A DNA stretch of 64,000 nucleotides, from NCBI RefSeq assembly GCF_024807615.1, contig NZ_JANUCJ010000003.1, positions 682,001 to 746,000 on the forward strand. Reading direction: 5' to 3'. The position numbers and the translations under genes were made by a program. The notes beneath the pieces are model-generated. The model was not told the DNA's origin. It searched no databases and was given only the letters and a program-made list of their open reading frames with translations. Origin of the DNA: Tsukamurella ocularis. Its GTDB lineage: Bacteria > Actinomycetota > Actinomycetes > Mycobacteriales > Mycobacteriaceae. Below, one piece after another: positions 1,398 through 11,033 of this stretch. Within the stretch, counting starts at the first letter, position 1. The number at the start of each line of letters is the position of its first letter.

Positions 1398-2425
1398 AGG
1401 ACCCGGGCGATCCATCGCTGCGGCTCGTCGAGTTCCTCGGGCAGCGGCAGCGTCTCGGGGCCAGCCCACACGCGGTTGAACCGCTCCATGCCCACCTCTG
1501 CCACCACGGCGTCGACGAACGTCTTGCCGCGCACGTACTGCGCGATCTTCGCGTCCATGCCCATCAAGGCCCGCAGGAGCCGCTGGAACGGGTTCGACGG
1601 TGCCGCGCGCCGCCGGTCGAAGGCGGCGCGGATGGTCGCGACGGTAGGGATCACGCCGGGCCCGGCGGCGTCCATGACGTGGTCGGCGTGGCCCTCGAGG
1701 AGGGTGCCGAGCATGAGCAGCCGCTCGACTGCGGCGAACTGCTCTGGCGGGGCAGCGACCTCGAGCACGCCGATGATGCCGTCGTGCCGCGCGTCGCCGG
1801 ACAAGGCCCGCCGAACGCGGGCCAGGAGGTCACCGAGGGAGCCGGCGCCGGCGGTCCCGGCGAGCGCGGCGACGTTCTCCCGCATGTACTCCCGCAGCCA
1901 CGGATTGGCGGCGAACTGCACGCGGTGGGTCACCTCGTGCAGGCACACCCACATGCGAAAGTCCTCGGGCCGCAGCCGCAGCGCCCGCTCGACGGCGAGC
2001 ACGTTCGGGACGACGAGCAGCAACTCGCCACCCCGGACGCCGAACGGATCGTACTGGCCCAGAACGGAACCGGAGACCATGCCGAGCATGGCGCCGGCCT
2101 GCACTCCCGCGAGGCGGGCACCCAGGCCGGGGTGTCCCGCGTCGTCCGACTCGATCAGCGCCTCCATCGACCGGGCGGCCGCGGAGACCCATTCCTGCCG
2201 GTCCACGGTGCGCGCCGGCGGCGCGGTCCCGGGGGTGACGAGTCCGGTCACGCGCAGGACGTGCTCCTCGGCGGCGGCCGCGTCCTCGAGCAGCTGGGCG
2301 GCGGCGCGGTCGCGGGTGTAGGCGGTGGCGGCGGGGCCGTCGCCGAGGACGCGGGCCACGCGACGTCCGGACGCCGCGGCGAGCGCCCAGTCCACCTGCG
2401 CGCGCACCGACTTCGAATCCGCCAT
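1394..2425 (-). CDS. Zinc-dependent metalloprotease, actinobacterial coenzyme F420-type zincin family
   Basis: The 343-residue protein carries a zincin motif HEVTH near residues 162-166 inside WVCLHEVTHRVQF, followed by a helix-rich C-terminal half. It resembles the uncharacterised actinobacterial zincin family represented by Rv3626c; its substrate is unknown. No signal peptide is visible, although Ala/Gly-rich stretches near the HExxH motif could be amphipathic. It starts with ATG 5 nt after the dacB stop and overlaps tilS, so dacB, this gene, tilS and hpt probably form one transcript. The function call rests on the motif and on gene order. Confidence 0.85.
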   Translation of the reverse strand: MADSKSVRAQVDWALAAASGRRVARVLGDGPAATAYTRDRAAAQLLEDAAAAEEHVLRVTGLVTPGTAPPARTVDRQEWVSAAARSMEALIESDDAGHPGLGARLAGVQAGAMLGMVSGSVLGQYDPFGVRGGELLLVVPNVLAVERALRLRPEDFRMWVCLHEVTHRVQFAANPWLREYMRENVAALAGTAGAGSLGDLLARVRRALSGDARHDGIIGVLEVAAPPEQFAAVERLLMLGTLLEGHADHVMDAAGPGVIPTVATIRAAFDRRRAAPSNPFQRLLRALMGMDAKIAQYVRGKTFVDAVVAEVGMERFNRVWAGPETLPLPEELDEPQRWIARVL

Positions 2426-2430
2426 GGCGA

Positions 2431-3801
2431 TCAGCGGCACCCGCAACCGCGGAGCGCGGCCGTCACGGCGTCCATCGCGGGCCGGGCCACGTCGACCGGC
2501 GTACCGGAGGACATGAGCGTGAAGGTGAGCACGGCACCGTCGCGCCCGGGGACGTAGCCGGCGAGCGTGGAGACGCCCGACAGGCTCCCCGTCTTGGCGC
2601 GGACGTAGCCGGCGCCGGGCCGGTTGACGGTGGTGTACCGGTCGGCGAGCGTTCCGGTGGCGGCGGCCACGGGCAGCAGGTCCAGCAGGGGGCGCAGCTG
2701 CGGCTTGCCCGTGCCGGCCGCCGCGGTGACGATGCCGTCGAGCACCGTCGCGGGAATGCGGTTGGCGTTCGACAGGCCGCTGGTATCGGAGAGTTCGACG
2801 CCGGTGAGGTCGAAGCCGGCGTTCCGAAGCGCCCCGGTGACCGCGCGGGTGGCACCGTCGAACGAGGCCGGCTGGTTCGTGGCGAGCGCGACCTCGCGGC
2901 CGATGGCCTCGGCGAGCACGTTGTCGGAGTGCACCAGCGCGTCGTGCAGCCGGGTGCTGAGCGGGGCGCTCCGGACGGCGGCGAGTTGCGCCGCGCCCTG
3001 GGGCGCGGTGCCCTCGGCGACGGCGGTCGACGGCAGGCCGAGCGCTGCGGCGAGGGCACGGCCGGCGGTCAGCGCGGGGTCGGCGACGCGGGGCGAGTAG
3101 TCCTCGGCGGGCCGGATGCGGCCGGAGTCGGCGATGAGCGACTGCAGCGGGGTGATGTCGCCGCCCGCGATGTCGGCGCGCTCCCAGCCGCGGGCGAAGT
3201 CGGTGCCGGTGAACAGGGAGGTGTCGACGACGACCTTGGTGACCGTCGTGCCGGCGCGGCGGATCTGCGCGGCGAGGTCGGCGATCTTCGGCGCGTCCGT
3301 GAACAGCGACGGTCCGCCCGCGCGCAGCGTCGGATCGCCCGCGCCGACGAGGACGACCTCGCCGGGGACCGCGCCCGCGACCACGGTGGTGGTGATCCGC
3401 TTGTCGGCGGGCAGGGTGAGCAGCGCGGCGGCGGCGGTGAGCACCTTGGTGGTCGACGCCGGGGTGCGGGGGCGCGCGGCGTCCCGCTGCCACAGCACCT
3501 GGCCGGTGCCCGCGTCGGCGATGACGCCGGTGAAGTCGCCCAGGTCAGGACTGCGCAGGGCCGCCTCGATCTGGGTGGTGATCCCGGCGGCAGTGGGGGC
3601 GACAGTGCCCGCCACCTGCGTGATAGCGGGACTGTAGGACGCCTCGGCAGGGCGCGGCGGCACGGTGTCCGCCACGGCCTGCCGGTCGCGGTAGACGCCG
3701 TATCCCAGGGTGGCCGCGACGGCGCCGCCGACGACCAGCGCCAGCACGACCACGGTGATCGCGAGGCGCAGGAGGGTCCGTCGAATCCGCGAGCGTCGCA
3801 C
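2431..3801 (-). CDS. dacB: D-alanyl-D-alanine carboxypeptidase / penicillin-binding protein 4 family
   Basis: This is an S13-type serine peptidase that trims peptidoglycan stem peptides outside the membrane. Residues 10-35 form a signal anchor after an Arg-rich N-terminus. The three penicillin-binding motifs are present: SxxK as Ser116-Thr-Thr-Lys119, SDN near residue 292, and KTG near residue 402. The length of 456 residues fits Rv3627c-like proteins. The start is a GTG placed six bases after a TAGGGT -10 element, so the transcript is probably leaderless. It is divergent from ppa, as in M. tuberculosis. Confidence 0.9.
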   Translation of the reverse strand: MRRSRIRRTLLRLAITVVVLALVVGGAVAATLGYGVYRDRQAVADTVPPRPAEASYSPAITQVAGTVAPTAAGITTQIEAALRSPDLGDFTGVIADAGTGQVLWQRDAARPRTPASTTKVLTAAAALLTLPADKRITTTVVAGAVPGEVVLVGAGDPTLRAGGPSLFTDAPKIADLAAQIRRAGTTVTKVVVDTSLFTGTDFARGWERADIAGGDITPLQSLIADSGRIRPAEDYSPRVADPALTAGRALAAALGLPSTAVAEGTAPQGAAQLAAVRSAPLSTRLHDALVHSDNVLAEAIGREVALATNQPASFDGATRAVTGALRNAGFDLTGVELSDTSGLSNANRIPATVLDGIVTAAAGTGKPQLRPLLDLLPVAAATGTLADRYTTVNRPGAGYVRAKTGSLSGVSTLAGYVPGRDGAVLTFTLMSSGTPVDVARPAMDAVTAALRGCGCR

Positions 3802-3807
3802 CGCACC

Positions 3808-3813
3808 ACCCTA
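3808..3813 (-). promoter_or_regulatory. -10 element of leaderless dacB promoter
   Basis: TAGGGT on the minus strand is followed by six bases and then the dacB GTG. This spacing puts the expected transcription start at or next to the start codon. No Shine-Dalgarno sequence is present. Confidence 0.6.
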
Positions 3814-3868
3814 ACGGCAGCCCGAGGCTGGGAGCGGAGTGAGCGGGTCGGACCAGGTTCGCAAAGGG

Positions 3869-3874
3869 TATCCT
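3869..3874 (+). promoter_or_regulatory. -10 element before the ppa leader ORF
   Basis: TATCCT lies eight bases before the ATG of a nine-codon leader ORF and 34 bases before ppa. By the spacing seen at other genes here, the transcript would begin at the leader ORF and not at ppa. Confidence 0.5.
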
Positions 3875-3882
3875 CGTCGTGC

Positions 3883-3912
3883 ATGGTTGACGCGAGCGAA
3901 GGGAAACAATGA
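3883..3912 (+). CDS. Nine-residue upstream ORF overlapping the ppa start
   Basis: The ORF reads MVDASEGKQ and its TGA stop shares bases with the ppa start codon (ATGA). Its ATG lies eight bases after a TATCCT -10 box, the layout of leaderless genes in this window. Ribosomes ending here would be positioned to reinitiate at ppa, which also has its own GAAGGGA ribosome-binding site inside the leader ORF. Whether the peptide is made is inference from promoter spacing and the exact overlap; the ORF is short enough to arise by chance. Confidence 0.4.
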
Positions 3913-4412
3913 GCGTCGAATTCGAGGTCACCGTCGAGATCGCCAAGGGCTCGCGGAACAAGTACGAGGTGGATCACAAGACGGGCCGGCTCAAGCTGGA
4001 CCGGTATCTGTACACCGCCTTCGGCTACCCCACCGACTACGGCTACATCGAGGACACCCTGGGTGAGGACGGCGATCCGCTGGACGCGCTCGTGCTGCTG
4101 CAGGAGTCGGTGATCCCCGGATCGCTGGTCGACTGCCGCGCCGTCGCCATGTTCAAGATGGAGGACGAGAAGGGCGGCGACGACAAGGTGCTCGTCGTTC
4201 CCGCCGGCGATCCCCGCTGGGACTCGGTCCAGGACATCGGCGACATCGACAAGTTCGAGCTCGACGCCATCGAACACTTCTTCGTCCACTACAAGGACCT
4301 CGAGCCCGGCAAGTTCGTCAAGGGCTCGACGTGGGTGGGCAAGAAGGAGGCCGAGGAGGAGATCGCCCGGTCGATCGCCCGCGCCGAGACCGCCGGGTCC
4401 GACGCGCACTGA
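3909..4412 (+). CDS. ppa: Inorganic pyrophosphatase
   Basis: This soluble family I pyrophosphatase hydrolyses PPi to two phosphates and so pulls biosynthetic reactions forward. The 167-residue length and the metal-binding signature DGDPLDALV (residues 57-65) are diagnostic, as are the active-site tyrosines in [17 protein letters not shown]. The ATG has a GAAGGGA Shine-Dalgarno sequence and overlaps the stop of a short leader ORF. The gene is divergent from dacB and ends at a strong hairpin shared with the convergent lipoprotein gene. Confidence 0.97.
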
Positions 4413-4425
4413 CACCGTGAGACGC

Positions 4426-4459
4426 GAAGCGGCGGCGAGGATCTCCTCGCCGCCGCTTC
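4426..4459. terminator. Bidirectional hairpin between ppa and lipoprotein gene
   Basis: A perfect 15-bp stem (left arm GAAGCGGCGGCGAGG) closes on the four-base loop ATCT between two convergent genes. No T-run follows, as is usual for actinobacterial terminators. Confidence 0.75.
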
Positions 4460-4473
4460 CGTACGTCCTAGCG

Positions 4474-5154
4474 CTACAGCCTTCCGGCCACGCGCCTGAC
4501 CAGGTCGTCGAACGTCGCGGTGTCGTACGTTCCGTTGGCACTCGGGTTCGCGTTGACCATCGCGAACACGCCGTTCTTCGAGAAGTACGCCGACGCCGAG
4601 CGCGCCGTCTTCTCGTTCGCGGTGCGTGCGAACTCAAAGACGAAGCCCTGCGCCCCTGCGGCACCGGCGGGCAGGTCCTTGCGGGTGGTCGCCTGCTTGA
4701 GCGCGCCGCCACCGTACTCGATCACTGCACACTCGCCGGTTCCTGCGGCCTCGAACACCGAGAGCCGCGCTGAGCCGGGTAGCAGGGTCACCCCGAAGCT
4801 CAACGACGTGTCCTTGGACAACGTCTGCTGGACGCCGTACTTGATCGTCTCCAGCACCTCCTGCTGCGCGGCGACGTTCTTGTCCTTGCAGGCCGCAGGC
4901 GTGATCTGTGCCGCCTGCACCTGGCCGACGGAGTTCATGGCGCCCTGGAAGGCGTCGTCGCTCGGCACCTTGGACAGGGCCAGCCCTGCGGGCAGGTCGG
5001 CCTGGACGAGGGCCTTCGACGGCACGTCGACGTCCGGGACGGCGGACGACGATGCCGCCTCGTCGCCGCTCCCGCCGCAGCCGGCGAGCAGGAGGCCCGA
5101 CGCGGCGACCGCCGCGAGGATGCCGAGGGAACGGGTCGGGTCACTGCGGCGCAA
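4474..5154 (-). CDS. Predicted lipoprotein of unknown function
   Basis: The 226-residue product starts with a short charged segment, a hydrophobic stretch and the lipobox LLAGC with Cys26 as the lipidated residue, so it is predicted to be anchored outside the cytoplasmic membrane. The mature part opens with a Gly/Ser/Ala linker and then a domain of about 170 residues with several Cys and alternating beta segments, resembling mycobacterial LpqN/LppA-like lipoproteins only in a general way. I do not recognise the family. The start is TTG, chosen because AGGAGA lies seven bases upstream and it places the lipobox correctly. Confidence 0.75.
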   Translation of the reverse strand: MRRSDPTRSLGILAAVAASGLLLAGCGGSGDEAASSSAVPDVDVPSKALVQADLPAGLALSKVPSDDAFQGAMNSVGQVQAAQITPAACKDKNVAAQQEVLETIKYGVQQTLSKDTSLSFGVTLLPGSARLSVFEAAGTGECAVIEYGGGALKQATTRKDLPAGAAGAQGFVFEFARTANEKTARSASAYFSKNGVFAMVNANPSANGTYDTATFDDLVRRVAGRL

Positions 5155-5189
5155 CGGCTTTCTCCTGCCGATCGGGATTGCGGATCGGG

Positions 5190-8100
5190 CTAGACCTTAC
5201 CGAACCGCCGCAGGAAAGACACAGCGAAGGCCGGGTAACCCCCGTCGCGGATCGCGCGCCGCGCGGCCGCGGCGAGGGATACGAAGAAATGCTCGTTGTG
5301 CAGGGTGCACAGCGTCACGGCAAGCCCCTCGTTCGCGGCGAACAGGTGGTGCACGTAGGCGCGGGTGAAGGCGTCGGTCCGATTGGTCCCGCCGGGCCGC
5401 CCCTCGGCGGGGTCGAGCGGCCGGAAGTCCGCGCGCAGCGCGGGATCGGTGACGTCGAGGACGCCCGTCGAGGTGTAGACGCGGCCCTCGGCGCCGGCCC
5501 GCGCGGGCTCGGTGCCGTCGAGCAGGTCCACGCCCGCCTCGATCGCGGCCAGCAGGTCCGCCGGGCCGGCGATGCCGCCGAGGTAGCGCGGCCGGTCCGT
5601 CTCGAGCTCGCCGATGGCGGTACGCAGCAGCGCGGTCTCGTGGGCGGGGGCTCCGACGCCCTCGATCCGGTAGCCGCCGAAGCCCAGTCCGCCGGCCCGC
5701 CGGTCCTCGTCCGCGAGCCTGCGCAGTGCGCGGGCCGCGGACCGTCGACGCTCGGGATCCGCTCCGCCGGTCACCACGGCCCAGAGCGACAGGGCGTCGT
5801 GCCGGTCCGCGGTCTGCCAGGCGTGCTCGGCGAGGGCCCGCCGGGCCCAGCGCTCCGTACGCGCGGGATCGGCCGCGTCCGCGAGGGCGAAGGCGACGTC
5901 GAAGCCCATGCGGTGCGCGAGGCGCACCGCCTCCTCGGGGTCCCAGCGGTGCGGCGACCCGTCCAGGCGGCCGCGGAAGGCGATGCCCTCGTCGGTGATC
6001 CGCGTCTTGCGCTGCTCCGCGACGGCGGCGACCCCGGTGTCGGCGATCGTCGGCGCCGACCAGGCCATCGCGGCGCCGATACCACCCGCGCCCTCGATGA
6101 CGTCGACGCCGGGCTGCAGATACAGCTCGTGCAGATCGACGGTCAGCGCCGCGGCGCCGAGGTCGGTCAGCTCACGCGGGGTGAGGCCGGCGATCGCGCC
6201 GCGGCTCGCCACCGGCACGTAGGCGGGCGTGGCGATCTCGCCGCGGGGCAGCATTATCCGGCCCGACCGGGCCCCGTCGGGACCAGTGGCCTCGACGGCG
6301 AATCGCACGGAGTCGGTGGTGCCGGAGGCGCGCAGCCGGGTGTTACCGGCGATCGCCCGATAGCCGGTGCGGAGGTCGGCGAGTTCGGCTGCGAGCGAGG
6401 CGTTCTGGGCCCGGAGCTCGTCGATCTCGGAACGGGAGGCCGCGGCCTGCGCGGGCGTAGGCGGTGTGGGGACGGGGCCGGTGGGCGGTTCGGTCACAGT
6501 CTCCTCCGTCGCTGCTGTGCCCGCCACGGAAGCCGCGGCGGCGCTGATCTCCGCAGTCTCGATGCTGTCAGGCGTCGCGGCGGCGCCGGCCTCCGGGGTA
6601 GTCGCCTCGACGGCCGGAGCGGTGCGCAGCGGCACCGCCTTCCAGAACAGTACGAGGACCAGGCCGATCGCCGCCAGCACGGTGACGGCGAGGAAGACCA
6701 CGTCCATGGAGTCGGCGAATCCTGCCTTGAGCGGGTGCACCAGGGTGTCGGGTAGCTTCTGCAGCGCGGAGGTGTCGGACATGACGTCGCTGACGGCGCT
6801 GGAATCGCCGTGCGCGAGCTTGGCGGCGAAGTCCTGCGCGGCCGGGCCGTCGTGGCCGGCGGCGGCGCGCTGCACGGCGGCCATGTACTCGGGGTCCGCG
6901 GCCGCGTCGCTCATCCGGCCGCTCATCTTGTGCGGCATTTGCGAGAACAGCACGGAGAGGAAGACCGCGACGCCGAGCGTGCCGCCGATCTGGCGGAAGA
7001 ACGTCGCGGCAGCGGTGGAGACACCCATGTCCCGCGGCGGGAGGATGTTCTGCAGCGCCAGGGTGAGCGGCTGCATCAGGTTGCCGAGGCCGAAGCCGAT
7101 CACGGCCGCACCCGCCATGACGTAGCCGATCTCCACGTCGGCGCTGAGGTAGTGCATGCCGAACATGCCCGCGGTGAGGAGCACCGCGCCGATGATCGGG
7201 AAGACGCGGTAGCGGCCGGTGCGGGAGATCATCTGGCCGGCCAATATCGAGCCGAGCATCAAGCCCGCGACCATCGGCAGCATGAGGAAGCCCGCCTTCG
7301 TCGGGCTGGCGCCGCGGACCACCTGGAAGTACTGAGGCAGCAACGAGATGCCGCCGAACATCGCGGCGCCCACGACCATCGAGATGAGCACGCCCTGCGC
7401 GAAGATCACGTTCCTGAAGATGCGCAGCGGGATGATCGCGTCCTCGCCCATGCGCTTCTCGATGGCGATGAACGCGAGGATGCCGGCGGCGCCGATGCCG
7501 TAACAGATCAGCGCCTTGCTGGAGCTCCAGCCCCATTCCTGGCCCTGCTCGGCGACGATGAGCAGCGGGACCAGGCCGACGGACAGCGCCACCGCGCCGA
7601 ACCAGTCGATGCGGACTCCCTCGCGGCGGGTGTGCGGCAGGCGCAGCACGCGGGAGACGACGGCGAGCGCGACGATGCCGATCGGCACGTTCACCAGGAA
7701 GACCCAGCGCCAGCCGGAGATGCCGAGGATGTTGTCGGCGCCCGAGAACAGGCCGCCGAGCACGGGGCCGAGCACCGAGCTGGTGCCGAAGACGGCGAGG
7801 AAGTAGCCCTGGTACTTGGCGCGCTCGCGGGGCGGCACGATGTCGCCGATGATGGTGAGCGCCAGCGACATCAGGCCGCCGGCGCCGAGGCCCTGCACCG
7901 CACGGAAGGCCGCCAGCTCGTACATCGACGTGGCCGTGCTGCACAGCAGCGAGCCGATGACGAAGACGGTGATGGCGAACATGAAGAAGGGCTTGCGCCC
8001 GTAGATGTCCGACAGCTTGCCGTACAGCGGGGTGACGATCGTCGAGGTGATGAGGTACGCCGTGGTGACCCACGCCTGCAGCTTGTAGCCGTTGAGATCG

Positions 8101-8267
8101 TCCGCGATGGTCCGGATCGCCGTGGAGACGATCGTCTGGTCGAGCGCGGCCAGGAACATGCCGGTCATGAGCCCCGACAGGATGTAGAGGATCTGCTTGT
8201 GCGTGAGCCCGGCGCCCGCGGTCTCCACAACGGCGGCGGCGTCACGGTTCGCGGTCGCGGCGGTCAC
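5190..8267 (-). CDS. DHA2-type MFS exporter fused to a degenerate tRNA-guanine transglycosylase-like domain
   Basis: One uninterrupted frame of 1025 residues encodes two unrelated domains. Residues 1 to about 545 are a 14-helix EmrB/QacA-type major facilitator (LDQTIVSTAIRTIADDL, GKLSDIYGRK, and WRWVFLVNVPIG at the end of the first half). A linker of about 110 residues is rich in Ala, Thr and Glu and contains a short coiled coil near residues 610-632. Residues from about 655 resemble tRNA-guanine transglycosylase: GEIATPAYVPVASRGAI, ELYLQPGVDVIEGAGG, RPRYLGGIAGPADLL and RPLDP. The DSGGFQ motif is replaced by DTGVAA, and the CxCxxC zinc ligands are missing, although the DLLD aspartate and TLHN histidine remain. 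The GTG start overlaps the marR stop. The exporter half is certain; base-exchange activity of the second half is doubtful. Confidence 0.85.
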   Translation of the reverse strand: MTAATANRDAAAVVETAGAGLTHKQILYILSGLMTGMFLAALDQTIVSTAIRTIADDLNGYKLQAWVTTAYLITSTIVTPLYGKLSDIYGRKPFFMFAITVFVIGSLLCSTATSMYELAAFRAVQGLGAGGLMSLALTIIGDIVPPRERAKYQGYFLAVFGTSSVLGPVLGGLFSGADNILGISGWRWVFLVNVPIGIVALAVVSRVLRLPHTRREGVRIDWFGAVALSVGLVPLLIVAEQGQEWGWSSSKALICYGIGAAGILAFIAIEKRMGEDAIIPLRIFRNVIFAQGVLISMVVGAAMFGGISLLPQYFQVVRGASPTKAGFLMLPMVAGLMLGSILAGQMISRTGRYRVFPIIGAVLLTAGMFGMHYLSADVEIGYVMAGAAVIGFGLGNLMQPLTLALQNILPPRDMGVSTAAATFFRQIGGTLGVAVFLSVLFSQMPHKMSGRMSDAAADPEYMAAVQRAAAGHDGPAAQDFAAKLAHGDSSAVSDVMSDTSALQKLPDTLVHPLKAGFADSMDVVFLAVTVLAAIGLVLVLFWKAVPLRTAPAVEATTPEAGAAATPDSIETAEISAAAASVAGTAATEETVTEPPTGPVPTPPTPAQAAASRSEIDELRAQNASLAAELADLRTGYRAIAGNTRLRASGTTDSVRFAVEATGPDGARSGRIMLPRGEIATPAYVPVASRGAIAGLTPRELTDLGAAALTVDLHELYLQPGVDVIEGAGGIGAAMAWSAPTIADTGVAAVAEQRKTRITDEGIAFRGRLDGSPHRWDPEEAVRLAHRMGFDVAFALADAADPARTERWARRALAEHAWQTADRHDALSLWAVVTGGADPERRRSAARALRRLADEDRRAGGLGFGGYRIEGVGAPAHETALLRTAIGELETDRPRYLGGIAGPADLLAAIEAGVDLLDGTEPARAGAEGRVYTSTGVLDVTDPALRADFRPLDPAEGRPGGTNRTDAFTRAYVHHLFAANEGLAVTLCTLHNEHFFVSLAAAARRAIRDGGYPAFAVSFLRRFGKV

Positions 8268-8740
8268 TCGCCGTCCCGCATCAACTTGAGTGCCTGTTCG
8301 AACTGCACCAGCGCCCGGTTCCCGAGCGTCACGAACTGGTCGATCTCCTCGTCGGTCCACTCCTCCATGAGGGGCCGGAGCTTCTCGTTGCGCTGCTGCC
8401 GGATGAACTCGACCTTGGCCTCCCCCGCCTCCGTGGCGGAGACGAGCGCCGCCCGGCGGTCCGAGGGATCGGCGGTGCGCTCGGCGTAGCCCAGGTTGGT
8501 CAGGGTGGTCACGTACCGGCTCGCGGTGGACGGGTCGGTGTGGATCTGGTCCGCGAGCACCGACGAGCGCAGGGGCCCGCCTTTGACGAGCGCGAAGAGC
8601 GCGGTGTACGCCGCCAGTTCGACGCCGTCCGGCGCGACCGCATGCCGCGTCATCACCGCATGCCGCTCCTTGAGCCGAGTGAGCTCGGCGATCACGCCGA
8701 CGATCCCCTCGATCCGGTCCGCCCGTTCCTCGTCCGTCAT
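8264..8740 (-). CDS. MarR-family transcriptional regulator
   Basis: This winged-helix repressor has the MarR layout: an N-terminal dimerisation helix, a recognition region LADQIHTDPSTASRYVTTLTNLGYAERTADPSDRRA, and C-terminal helices. It overlaps the MFS-TGT gene by four bases (GTGA), so it very probably controls that exporter and itself in response to a small molecule. I chose ATG at the 3' side of a GTGATG pair because a GGAGG sequence lies just upstream; GTG one codon earlier is possible. Confidence 0.9.
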   Translation of the reverse strand: MTDEERADRIEGIVGVIAELTRLKERHAVMTRHAVAPDGVELAAYTALFALVKGGPLRSSVLADQIHTDPSTASRYVTTLTNLGYAERTADPSDRRAALVSATEAGEAKVEFIRQQRNEKLRPLMEEWTDEEIDQFVTLGNRALVQFEQALKLMRDGE

Positions 8741-8784
8741 CACGCCTCCGCAGGTTCCGTCCGCCCACGCCGCCGTGGCCGGAC

Positions 8785-8824
8785 ATGCAAAACTACGTGC
8801 AGCTTACAACTATTAGGAGAACTA
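8785..8824 (-). promoter_or_regulatory. Putative MarR operator and promoter region
   Basis: This AT-rich patch in otherwise GC-rich DNA lies about 45 bases before marR. On the minus strand it carries three TAGTT repeats (spacing 12 and 17 bases) and the palindrome ACTAGT. It is the only obvious place for autoregulation of the marR-exporter pair. The operator assignment is inference. Confidence 0.4.
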
Positions 8825-8844
8825 GTCGACTCGGGCGAACCGGC

Positions 8845-9327
8845 CTATGCCGCCGATGTCGTGACGATTCTGGCACCTGTGAGCGCCACGAGCGCGGCGA
8901 AGTCGGTGCGGAAGATCGTGTCGTGCGTCCCGGCCGCCGCGTACAGGTCCGGGTAACCGGCGAGCGACTCGTCGATCACGGTGACCACCGGCCGCGGATG
9001 CCCGACGGGCGAAACGCCGCCGATGACCTGGCCGGTCGCGGCGGTCACGTCATCGGGCTTCGCACGAGTGATCGCGCCGTAACCGAGCCGCTGCGCGAGG
9101 CAATCGGTGTCCACTCGGTGCCGTCCACTCGACAGGACGAGCAAGGGCGCACCGTCGGCCAGGAAGACGAGGCTGTTGGCGATCGCGCCCACCTCGCACC
9201 CCAACGCCGCCGCGGCTTCCGCGGCGGTCTTGGCACCGTCCGGCACCAAGCGGACGGTGTCCGGGTGGCCCGCGGCGGCCAACGCCGCGCGGACGGTCTC
9301 GGTGCGGACGGAGTACTGCTCGGTCAC
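8845..9327 (-). CDS. YbaK/EbsC-family aminoacyl-tRNA deacylase
   Basis: Members of this family hydrolyse mischarged tRNA, classically Cys-tRNA-Pro, in trans. The 160-residue protein shows the family core AAAALGCEVGAIANSLVFLAD, then HRVDTDCLAQRLG and the GGVSPVGHPRPVVTVIDESL segment with the conserved GxxxP(V/F)G loop. It ends the run downstream of the SAM-IV riboswitch, 24 bases after the luciferase-like fragment, so it may be co-transcribed; a cysteine-related editing role would suit the sulfur-responsive control, but that link is inference. Confidence 0.88.
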   Translation of the reverse strand: MTEQYSVRTETVRAALAAAGHPDTVRLVPDGAKTAAEAAAALGCEVGAIANSLVFLADGAPLLVLSSGRHRVDTDCLAQRLGYGAITRAKPDDVTAATGQVIGGVSPVGHPRPVVTVIDESLAGYPDLYAAAGTHDTIFRTDFAALVALTGARIVTTSAA

Positions 9328-9351
9328 GCCGACCAGTATGCCCGCTCCGCG

Positions 9352-9735
9352 CTACGCGGCGAGCAGGGTGGCGATGAGGTCCTTGGTGCGCGCTCCGCCG
9401 ACGGGACGCAACACGACGGCGTCGGCAACCTCAGCGGCGTAGACATCCTCGATCAGGGATTTCAGGCCCGACGGGGTGCCGATGTACGTGATCCCCTGCG
9501 GCGCAGAGCTGCTCGGGGCGTAACTGGCACGGGCATCGGCGGCGCGCTCGTCGATCACCACGTCGACCTCGAGCGCGACGGCACCCGGCTCCCGCCCGGC
9601 GCGCTCGGCCTCGGCGCGCAGGTAGCCGCGCTCCCGCTGTGCGAGGCGCAGGTCGGCGGCACGGACGCGGGTCAGGTGCGAGGCTTCGGGCTCACCGTCG
9701 ACGGTGATCACCAGTGCGGGGCGGGAGACGGTCAT
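9352..9735 (-). CDS. Free-standing C-terminal piece of a luciferase-like monooxygenase
   Basis: The 127-residue product resembles only the C-terminal third of bacterial luciferase-like (LLM) flavin monooxygenases: an AAR/EAGR(E/D)P helix, a VDVVIDERAADARASY segment, then YIGTPSGLKSLIEDVYAAEVADAVVLRPVG, which matches the family's (F/Y)VGTP...D(G/A)FxLxP end. Full LLM proteins are about 350-450 residues, and there is no room for the TIM-barrel start because the aminotransferase ends 15 bases upstream. The ATG has a GGAGGA site. It is either a truncated remnant or a reduced domain kept in this operon. Catalysis alone is unlikely. Confidence 0.7.
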   Translation of the reverse strand: MTVSRPALVITVDGEPEASHLTRVRAADLRLAQRERGYLRAEAERAGREPGAVALEVDVVIDERAADARASYAPSSSAPQGITYIGTPSGLKSLIEDVYAAEVADAVVLRPVGGARTKDLIATLLAA

Positions 9736-9749
9736 GGATTCCTCCGGGT

Positions 9750-11033
9750 TCAATTCGCTCGTGCGGACAAGTCTTCGAGGGCGCGCGCCAGGCGGCGCAC
9801 GTCGTTCTCGCTCGTGCCGAGGCCGATGCTCGCGCGGACGGCGCCGTCGTAGCATCCCAATCGGTTAACGACGGGGTGGGCGCAGAACTTCCCGTCGCGC
9901 ACGCCGATCCCGTGCTCCGACGAGAGGAACTCGGCGACCTCGCGGGGCGTGCGACCGTCCACGGTGAAGGCGACGATGCCCACCCGCTCGGTCGAGTCGG
10001 CCCAGATCTTCAGCGTGCGGACCCCGTCGACGCCCTTGAGCGAGCGGAGCAGCAGGTCGGTGAGGAAACGCTCGTGACGGGCGATGGCGTCCTCGCCGAG
10101 GCGCTCGATGGCTTCGCAGGCGGCAGCGATGGCGACGGCGCCGAGGACGTTGGGCGAGCCGGCCTCGTGCCGCGCGGGCCCGGTGTGCCAGGCCACCTCG
10201 ACAGACTTCGAGACGGGCGTGCCGATCACCTCGTAGCTGGCGCCGCCGCCGCAGCGGACGGGCTCGGCCTCGTCGAACCAGTCGGCGCGACCGACGAGCA
10301 CGCCCGAGCCGAAGGGCGCGTACAGCTTGTGGCCGGAGAAGGCGAGGTAGTCGACGCCGCTCTCCCGCAACGAGATCCGACGGTGCGGGACCAGCTGGGC
10401 ACCGTCGACCGCGATCCGCGCGCCGTGCCGGTGGGCGAGTGCGGCGAGCCGGCGGATCGGCAACACCTCGCCCGTGACGTTGGACGCGCCGGTGACGCTG
10501 ACGAGGGCGGCGGGGCGGCTGCGCAGCTCCTTCTCCAGCACCTCGAGCGTGCCCTCGATCGACAGCGGCGCCGAGATCACACGCGCGCCGATCCGCTTCC
10601 ACGGCAGGAGGTTCGCGTGATGCTCGCAGTCGAGGACCACGACCTCGCCGGGCACGCAGCCCGCGAGCAGGTTGAGCGAGTCGGTGGTGTTGCCGGTGAA
10701 GATGACGTGGTCGTCGGCGCGGGCGCCCACGAACTCGGCGACGATCTCGCGGGCCCGCTCGTAGCGGGAGGTGGAGCGCTGCGAGAGGTAGCCGGCGCCG
10801 CGGTGCACGCTCGCGTACTCGCCCAGCGCGGCCTGGACCGCCTCCTGCACCTCGACCAGGGCGGGAGCGCTCGCGGCGTAGTCGAAGTTGGCGTAGCGGA
10901 CCGTCGCGCCGTCCGTGAGCGGGGCGTACTCGTCGGCGCCGGTCACGGCGGCGAGGGGGCCCAGCGACAGCGGCGTGCTGCGGACGGTCGGGGTGAGGCA
11001 GACGGCGGTGCGCTCGGTGGTGGCGATGCTCAT
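9750..11033 (-). CDS. Class V aminotransferase, cysteine-desulfurase-like
   Basis: This PLP enzyme of 427 residues has the fold type I features of the Csd/SufS/NifS group: RYANFDYAASAP near the N-terminus, SVHRGAGYLSQ, DCEHHANLLPW, VDGAQLVPHR for the cofactor aspartate, and the PLP lysine in SGHKLYAPFGSG (about residue 235). The catalytic-cysteine loop of SufS is not obvious, so it could be a desulfurase relative with a different substrate. The gene follows a SAM-IV riboswitch, which links it to sulfur amino-acid metabolism. The ATG lies about 50 bases after the aptamer with GAAGGA upstream. Confidence 0.87.
   Translation of the reverse strand: MSIATTERTAVCLTPTVRSTPLSLGPLAAVTGADEYAPLTDGATVRYANFDYAASAPALVEVQEAVQAALGEYASVHRGAGYLSQRSTSRYERAREIVAEFVGARADDHVIFTGNTTDSLNLLAGCVPGEVVVLDCEHHANLLPWKRIGARVISAPLSIEGTLEVLEKELRSRPAALVSVTGASNVTGEVLPIRRLAALAHRHGARIAVDGAQLVPHRRISLRESGVDYLAFSGHKLYAPFGSGVLVGRADWFDEAEPVRCGGGASYEVIGTPVSKSVEVAWHTGPARHEAGSPNVLGAVAIAAACEAIERLGEDAIARHERFLTDLLLRSLKGVDGVRTLKIWADSTERVGIVAFTVDGRTPREVAEFLSSEHGIGVRDGKFCAHPVVNRLGCYDGAVRASIGLGTSENDVRRLARALEDLSARAN

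Follow-up and report, generated by a model that had tools for sequence, protein, structure and literature searches.

An exporter gene of Tsukamurella ocularis ends in a degenerate tRNA-guanine transglycosylase domain, possibly kept as a docking tail

We analysed a gene of Tsukamurella ocularis in which a transporter of the major facilitator superfamily (MFS) and a domain resembling tRNA-guanine transglycosylase (TGT) are encoded together. The gene lies on the minus strand at 5190..8267 of the window, by which we mean the whole stretch of 64,000 nucleotides under analysis (contig NZ_JANUCJ010000003.1, positions 682,001 to 746,000). It forms a single uninterrupted frame from a GTG codon at 8267 to a stop codon at 5190-5192 and encodes 1025 amino acids, comprising a DHA2 exporter, a coiled-coil-like helix and a pseudo-TGT domain. 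The fusion is conserved in the genus, the TGT-like domain has lost its base-recognition residues, and all TGT tails of transporters fall into one clade. By analogy with known TGT subunits, we tentatively read the C-terminal domain as a retired TGT kept as a docking tail, which may pair with the TGT of an MMPL-type transporter; our confidence in this reading stays somewhat below even.

The GTG start holds, because ATG or GTG was found near the same place in all 13 orthologous frames compared. The exporter part (residues 23-548; 6624..8201, minus strand) was matched by the Pfam profile MFS_1 over residues 33-432 (173.7 bits) and scored 263.4 bits with TIGR00711, the profile of the EmrB family, which is above the cut-off of 230.2 and thus places it among DHA2 exporters. 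Its top NCBIfam profiles are the tetracycline exporters OtrB and Tcr3, each under its own cut-off; OtrB gave 447.6 bits over residues 5-565 and did not reach its exception cut-off of 999. A low-complexity linker (about residues 549-612; 6432..6623, minus strand) leads to a single long helix of predicted coiled-coil type (residues 615-648; 6324..6425, minus strand), for which a sub-threshold match to DivIC (18.1 bits, cut-off 28.9) was the only hint of coiled-coil kinship. The pseudo-TGT domain (residues 655-1025; 5193..6305, minus strand) was matched by the TGT profile PF01702 over residues 664-1022 (226.5 bits, cut-off 26.3). A first-pass annotation of the window had described a DHA2 exporter and a TGT-like domain joined in one frame by a linker with a coiled coil. 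The profile matches bear this out, and the helix is conserved and travels with the tail. A full-length AlphaFold2 model of the 1025-residue protein was too poor to use (mean predicted local distance difference test 43.5). The model of the pseudo-TGT domain matches the fold of Zymomonas mobilis TGT, with 357 residues superposed at 1.7 Å and about 30% identity. In its MFS part above the TIGR00711 cut-off and in its MarR neighbour, the protein resembles DHA2 drug exporters such as EmrB, OtrB and Tcr3. It differs from them in carrying the helix and TGT tail; the nearest exporter homologue found outside the genus (64% identical, G020, among 33 genomes searched) ends at 568 residues and has neither.

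Residues lost and kept in the domain are given in Z. mobilis TGT numbering, and decay was counted over 15 tails of the type found here (type B, see below). The DSGGFQ motif is replaced by DTGVAA, and DLLD still has its aspartate and TLHN its histidine, all as first annotated. The alignment added that the aspartate of DTG occupies the Asp102 position. Both catalytic aspartates are therefore present, as Asp743 (Asp102; codon 6039..6041, minus strand) and Asp917 (Asp280, the nucleophile; codon 5517..5519, minus strand). Asp280 is kept in 15/15 B-type tails and Asp102 in 14, with one Glu. The positions that hold the base have fared differently: Tyr/Phe106 is a gap in 14/15 tails, Asp156 is Ala in 14/15, Gln203 is Thr, Ala or Gly in all 15, and Met/Leu260 is Ala, Gly or Pro in 14/15. 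Leu68 and His73 are lost in 14 tails each and Asn70 in 15, and the pocket-shaping residues 105-111 are missing. With the Tgt equivalog profile TIGR00430 (cut-off 306.75) the gene scored only 197 bits, against 375.8 bits for the A-type TGT of the same genome. The domain is thus degenerate, as had been proposed, but the suggestion of a nucleobase-binding pseudoenzyme that could sense or carry a deazapurine is at odds with the loss of the base-holding positions. With bacterial TGT, represented by the Z. mobilis enzyme and TIGR00430, the domain shares the fold and both catalytic aspartates; unlike that enzyme, it misses the equivalog cut-off, has lost base-recognition residues and zinc cysteines, and is borne by a transporter.

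Decay is uneven along the domain. In the Z. mobilis TGT dimer, a hot spot is formed by Phe92 together with Trp326, Tyr330 and His333 of the mate (PMC5395182). The B-type tails keep an aromatic residue at 326 in 15/15, and Tyr330, His333 and His349 each in 15/15; in the window, positions 326, 330 and 333 lie in the motif FTRAYVHH (residues 967-974; 5346..5369, minus strand). Of 152 columns conserved among free-standing and A-type TGTs, 79 are kept by the B-type tails overall (14 B-type rows, with L053 set apart). All 14 conserved columns in the region 326-357 are kept, compared to 65/138 elsewhere (Fisher p 7e-5, for a region chosen post hoc). Within the B type, conservation is highest of all blocks in 325-339 (97%) and 340-354 (99%).

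The T. ocularis genome contains three TGT-domain genes, and every one of them is a C-terminal transporter tail. Type A joins an MMPL protein to a complete-looking TGT (contig C1:747002-748174), type B is the gene described here, and type C, on contig C4, joins a second MMPL protein to the most decayed TGT; the helix motif precedes all three tails. Type A forms one frame with MMPL in 14 of the 16 genomes of the genus; in G014 MMPL and TGT lie in different frames, and in G006 the start of the TGT coincides with a contig end. Type B is in one frame with the MFS part in 14/16 genomes as well. Here the exceptions are G006, where the contig ends within the MFS part and no tail was seen, and G014, where the MFS part is missing and a separate short frame comprising linker, helix and pseudo-TGT directly follows a MarR gene (L071, about 7982-9791). 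C-type tails were found in 8/16 genomes, six times in one frame with MMPL; in G003 the tail starts at a contig end with MMPL on another contig, and in G005 a stretch holding an ISL3-type transposase breaks up MMPL. This insert of ~3.7 kb (L050, about 2413-6111; PF01610, 189.9 bits) also holds an AraC-like frame recognised by eye, and the tail frame downstream of it stays open. Two further carriers, an LfrA-like MFS protein in G013 (442.6 bits) and an EmrB-like MFS protein in G007 (312.8 bits), bring the total to five, and on four of the five the tails are degenerate. Two or more TGT matches, which one gene may give as two pieces, occur in 15/16 genomes of the genus versus 3/335 others in a family sample of 351 genomes. 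A scan of named genomes listed 80 of 183 confirmed loci; among those listed, ten, all of them from Tsukamurella, align with residues 1-412 or 1-409 of the 412 residues of the tail. The other 70 are 28-38% identical to it, and the first 17 residues, which form the front half of the helix, are matched by none of them. The recurrence of the same in-frame fusion in 14/16 assemblies rules out an accidental joining, in agreement with the first-pass annotation, which had proposed this check in relatives. It likewise leaves two genes joined by an assembly or frame error as a vanishingly small possibility, against which the ten near-complete matches in named Tsukamurella records also speak.

The zinc site of TGT, formed by Cys318, Cys320, Cys323 and His349, is generally regarded as essential. 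In the tail of this gene His349, the histidine of TLHN, is the only ligand kept; absence of the CxCxxC ligands had been correctly recognised and was taken as a mark of the pseudoenzyme. This use of it was rejected, since the three cysteines are also absent from A- and C-type tails, including all 16 A-type rows, and from 6/11 aligned free-standing TGTs of the order, all six with complete catalytic and base-pocket motifs. Because the loss is shared by types A, B and C and by motif-complete free TGTs, it probably predates the fusion. The six free genes (L012, L013, L014, L015, L020 and L025) come from six sister genera, one genome each; L014 and L025, the two that were scanned, reach equivalog-level Tgt scores despite the missing cysteines.

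The origin of the tails was analysed in a tree of 52 TGT domains without eukaryotic QTRT2 rows; the partial L051 was left out, and L033, a distant TGT of G038, fell below the phmmer threshold and was not entered. L054 was left out of alignment A1, and L038 and L065, whose helix pattern was unmatched, out of alignment A3. All transporter tails form one clade (100/99), and within the tree all pseudo-TGTs form one clade as well (100/100, stem 0.52); type A is short-branched, and the B-type tails group with the genus's A-type TGTs. The tail borne by the LfrA-like protein of G013 (L067) nests inside the B-type tails (99/90). The first to branch off is the B-type tail of G007, in which decay has gone about half as far: it has 36/152 conserved columns changed, compared to 73 columns that fewer than 12 rows retain among the 14 other B-type tails. 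C-type tails join L054 weakly (88/54), with long branches meeting there, so B- and C-type tails may have decayed independently.

The carriers point to how the tails may have spread. Among 31 non-genus genomes in which the places of both genes were listed (MMPL matches with E up to 1e-130; coordinates compared by reading), an MMPL homologue lies within 20 kb of the free tgt on one contig in 20, and in 17 of the 20 both genes are read from one strand, MMPL being the upstream one; in the remaining 11 the two are on different contigs or far apart. The gap is below 250 bases, with the same strand and order, in G017, G055, G080 and G096, and the MMPL-tgt neighbourhood recurs across genomes of the family. 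Since MMPL homologues lie near a free tgt elsewhere, type A is most simply explained by fusion of neighbouring genes. Inheritance of the coil from either parent was rejected, as the helix was not seen at the C-terminus of the tail-less MMPLs or the N-terminus of the free TGTs whose ends were inspected. The MMPL parts of types A and C are only 45-48% identical, compared to 54% between type A and a tail-less homologue in another genus. Whole-gene duplication of the MMPL-TGT gene is therefore an unlikely source of type C, and, the two MMPL parts being old paralogues, the tail itself appears to have moved between carriers. Taken together, a history of fusion, decay and spread is supported: an MMPL gene near tgt would have fused to a TGT already without zinc cysteines, gaining a new coiled-coil-like helix, and in the Tsukamurella lineage a helix-TGT copy would have lost its base pocket and then passed to a DHA2 exporter under MarR (this gene), a second MMPL protein and at least two other MFS exporters.

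Selection on the parts was estimated as the ratio of non-synonymous to synonymous substitution rates (dN/dS) by the Nei-Gojobori method, with L054, L067 and L071 left out of these and the full-length sets. For type B, nine pairs, which are not independent and include the gene described here in six, gave 0.10-0.19 for the tail (370-393 sites, beginning within the helix end), 0.07-0.19 for MFS, 0.03-0.13 for the helix and 0.09-0.70 for the linker, the highest of all parts; the linker of pair L037-L062 includes some MFS residues, as the end motif was not found there. The B-type tail is under purifying selection about as strong as that on the exporter. Values for the A-type tail were 0.01-0.07 (seven pairs) and for the C-type tail 0.18-0.29 (four pairs).

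Genes of queuosine metabolism were also searched for in the genus. No QueA match was found in any of the 16 genomes of the genus, which suggests dependence on salvage of queuosine precursors, and a YhhQ-type importer (PF02592) is present in 16/16. Matches to QueC (PF06508) were pieces of 53-56 residues (20.7-22.4 bits) within frames of 656-695 amino acids in 12/13 genomes searched and were taken as another enzyme. Qng1 (PF10343) gave no match, and neither did the controls, so this has no bearing on its presence. From its gene content, Tsukamurella is probably a queuosine salvager with an ordinary importer, and its sole complete-looking TGT appears to be the MMPL-borne A type. Quaiyum et al. 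(2024) reported MFS-TGT and MMPL-TGT fusions unique to Tsukamurella, Tpau_0550 (D5USC3) and Tpau_4044 (D5UNC0), as candidate transporters of queuosine precursors; an MMPL candidate from another genus did not complement (PMC11130926). Both come from the same genus and have the same two architectures as the genes described here, and Tpau_0550 is likely an orthologue of this gene. To our knowledge, that article, supplements aside, does not report tests of the Tsukamurella fusions, a degenerate MFS-fused domain, a third type or other carriers. Relative to that account, the present analysis shows the MFS-fused domain to be degenerate and adds the third type and the other carriers; to the same extent, the pseudoenzyme state, common origin, five carriers, half-kept interface and older zinc loss would be new.

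A precedent for a retired TGT is QTRT2, a non-catalytic TGT-fold subunit with a degenerate queuine site that stands beside the catalytic QTRT1; it has a zinc-binding domain, Cys at the place of Asp105 of QTRT1 and Glu at the nucleophile position (PMC6165067). Like QTRT2, the pseudo-TGT combines a TGT fold and a degenerate base site with a complete-looking TGT in the same cell, the A type; unlike QTRT2, it has lost the zinc ligands and kept both aspartates. QTRT2 is not known to occur in fusion with transporters. We propose pairing with the A type because a dead TGT with a kept hot spot, a coil-type helix and a co-resident TGT most resembles QTRT2. The proposal starts from bacterial TGTs acting as dimers. 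With its predicted fold and the aromatic hot-spot positions 326, 330 and 333, though without Phe92 or a base pocket, the pseudo-TGT would use the 326-333 region and the coil to pair with the intact TGT domain that the MMPL-TGT protein carries, in the way QTRT2 associates with QTRT1. As a consequence, the exporter and the MMPL protein may be brought together at the membrane, or the active TGT dimer may be limited. A broader version, in which TGT was turned into a shared assembly tag for transporters and the catalytic MMPL-TGT forms mixed dimers with the dead exporter copies, is possible but rather doubtful.

Several observations weigh against a docking tail. The known dimer interface is half altered in type B, because Ala has replaced Phe92, which makes up the second half of the hot spot, in 14/15 tails and changes are also seen at 47, 49 and 52, while 326, 330 and 333 are kept. 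In C-type tails the aromatic residue at 326 is lost in 7/8. Region 326-357 could instead be conserved for the sake of folding or of contacts with tRNA, and a pure scaffold would not need both catalytic aspartates. The link to the exporter would be dispensable in G014, unless the missing MFS part is an assembly fault, which is possible in a genome rated 83% complete. A Lys52-Glu339 contact in the TGT dimer, for which no published source was found, was left out of account. As a rival explanation, the tail may form exporter homodimers or hold the exporter in clusters of its own kind, with no special tie to MMPL-TGT. Helix and region 326-357 are conserved within type B, and the altered half of the interface (the loop around 45-56) is largely invariant there, as a co-adapted surface would be. 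Yet the change of Phe92 to Ala would weaken both symmetric contacts, and the half kept TGT-like would be the one that meets an intact partner; we consider self-pairing doubtful, though conceivable.

Three other explanations give the domain a different job or none. In the first, queuine or one of its precursors would be moved or sensed by the exporter and the TGT-like domain would receive or measure the base, which follows the logic of the fusion; an MFS protein of Bartonella henselae transports preQ0 and preQ1 (PMC11130926), and the probable dependence on salvage fits. This is nevertheless unlikely: the base pocket is lost in type B, the genus already has the YhhQ-type importer, the carriers of this single clade of tails, DHA2 exporters from different subfamilies and two MMPL proteins, are together improbable as queuosine-precursor importers, and the MarR pairing occurs without a tail (see below). 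Retention of Asp280 and Asp102 and the strong purifying selection would also suit an enzyme whose pocket was rebuilt for another base or nucleoside. Residues 105-111 are missing, however, the residues at 156, 203, 260 and 68-73 are now small or unlike, and C-type tails persist even with Glu at the 280 position in 7/8, so we regard a changed specificity as quite unlikely. A passenger tail, which folds only to spare the exporter harm from misfolding, is less probable again. The faster evolution of C-type tails and a tail-less homologue of the C-type MMPL in G011 (766-residue frame, 66% identical) are in its favour, but the B-type tail resembles the exporter in dN/dS, several carriers have acquired tails, and in G014 the tail outlives the exporter.

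The neighbourhood of the gene was also inspected. A MarR-type regulator identified by profile match (8264..8743, minus strand) overlaps the start codon of the exporter with its stop. In all 14 further B-type loci known from the genus, as well as in the fragment of G006, a MarR match adjoins exporter or tail. At tail-less homologous loci of other genera it ends 51-150 bases before the exporter match in 6/9 and is absent in the nearest, L174 (L182 and L185-L188 stand outside this count). The pairing is therefore not tied to the tail, and MarR, which had been taken to support a ligand-linked system, was rejected as an indicator of a ligand tied to TGT. The next gene upstream of MarR encodes an aminoacyl-tRNA editing domain (8845-9327, minus strand; PF04073, 94 bits), a second tRNA-related gene beside the fusion, which is matched in 13/15 other loci with a B-type or B-like tail, L067 and L073 being the exceptions. 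Just downstream of the fusion, a variable predicted lipoprotein (4474-5154, minus strand; LAGC box by eye, no Pfam match) was matched at 36-72% identity in 14/15 other loci, with L067 the exception.

A fusion of transporter and TGT has been read in print as a hint of queuosine-precursor transport. Tails of one clade on five carriers, degenerate on four, weaken this reading and offer pseudoenzymes as dimerisation tags for transporters as an alternative. Zinc-less TGTs with intact catalytic motifs bear on the purpose of the TGT zinc site, and the only complete-looking TGT of the genus sits on a membrane protein. If the proposed pairing is true, it would be a bacterial counterpart of QTRT1-QTRT2, with lipid and drug exporters gathered around, or tuned by, the sole queuosine-inserting enzyme of Tsukamurella.

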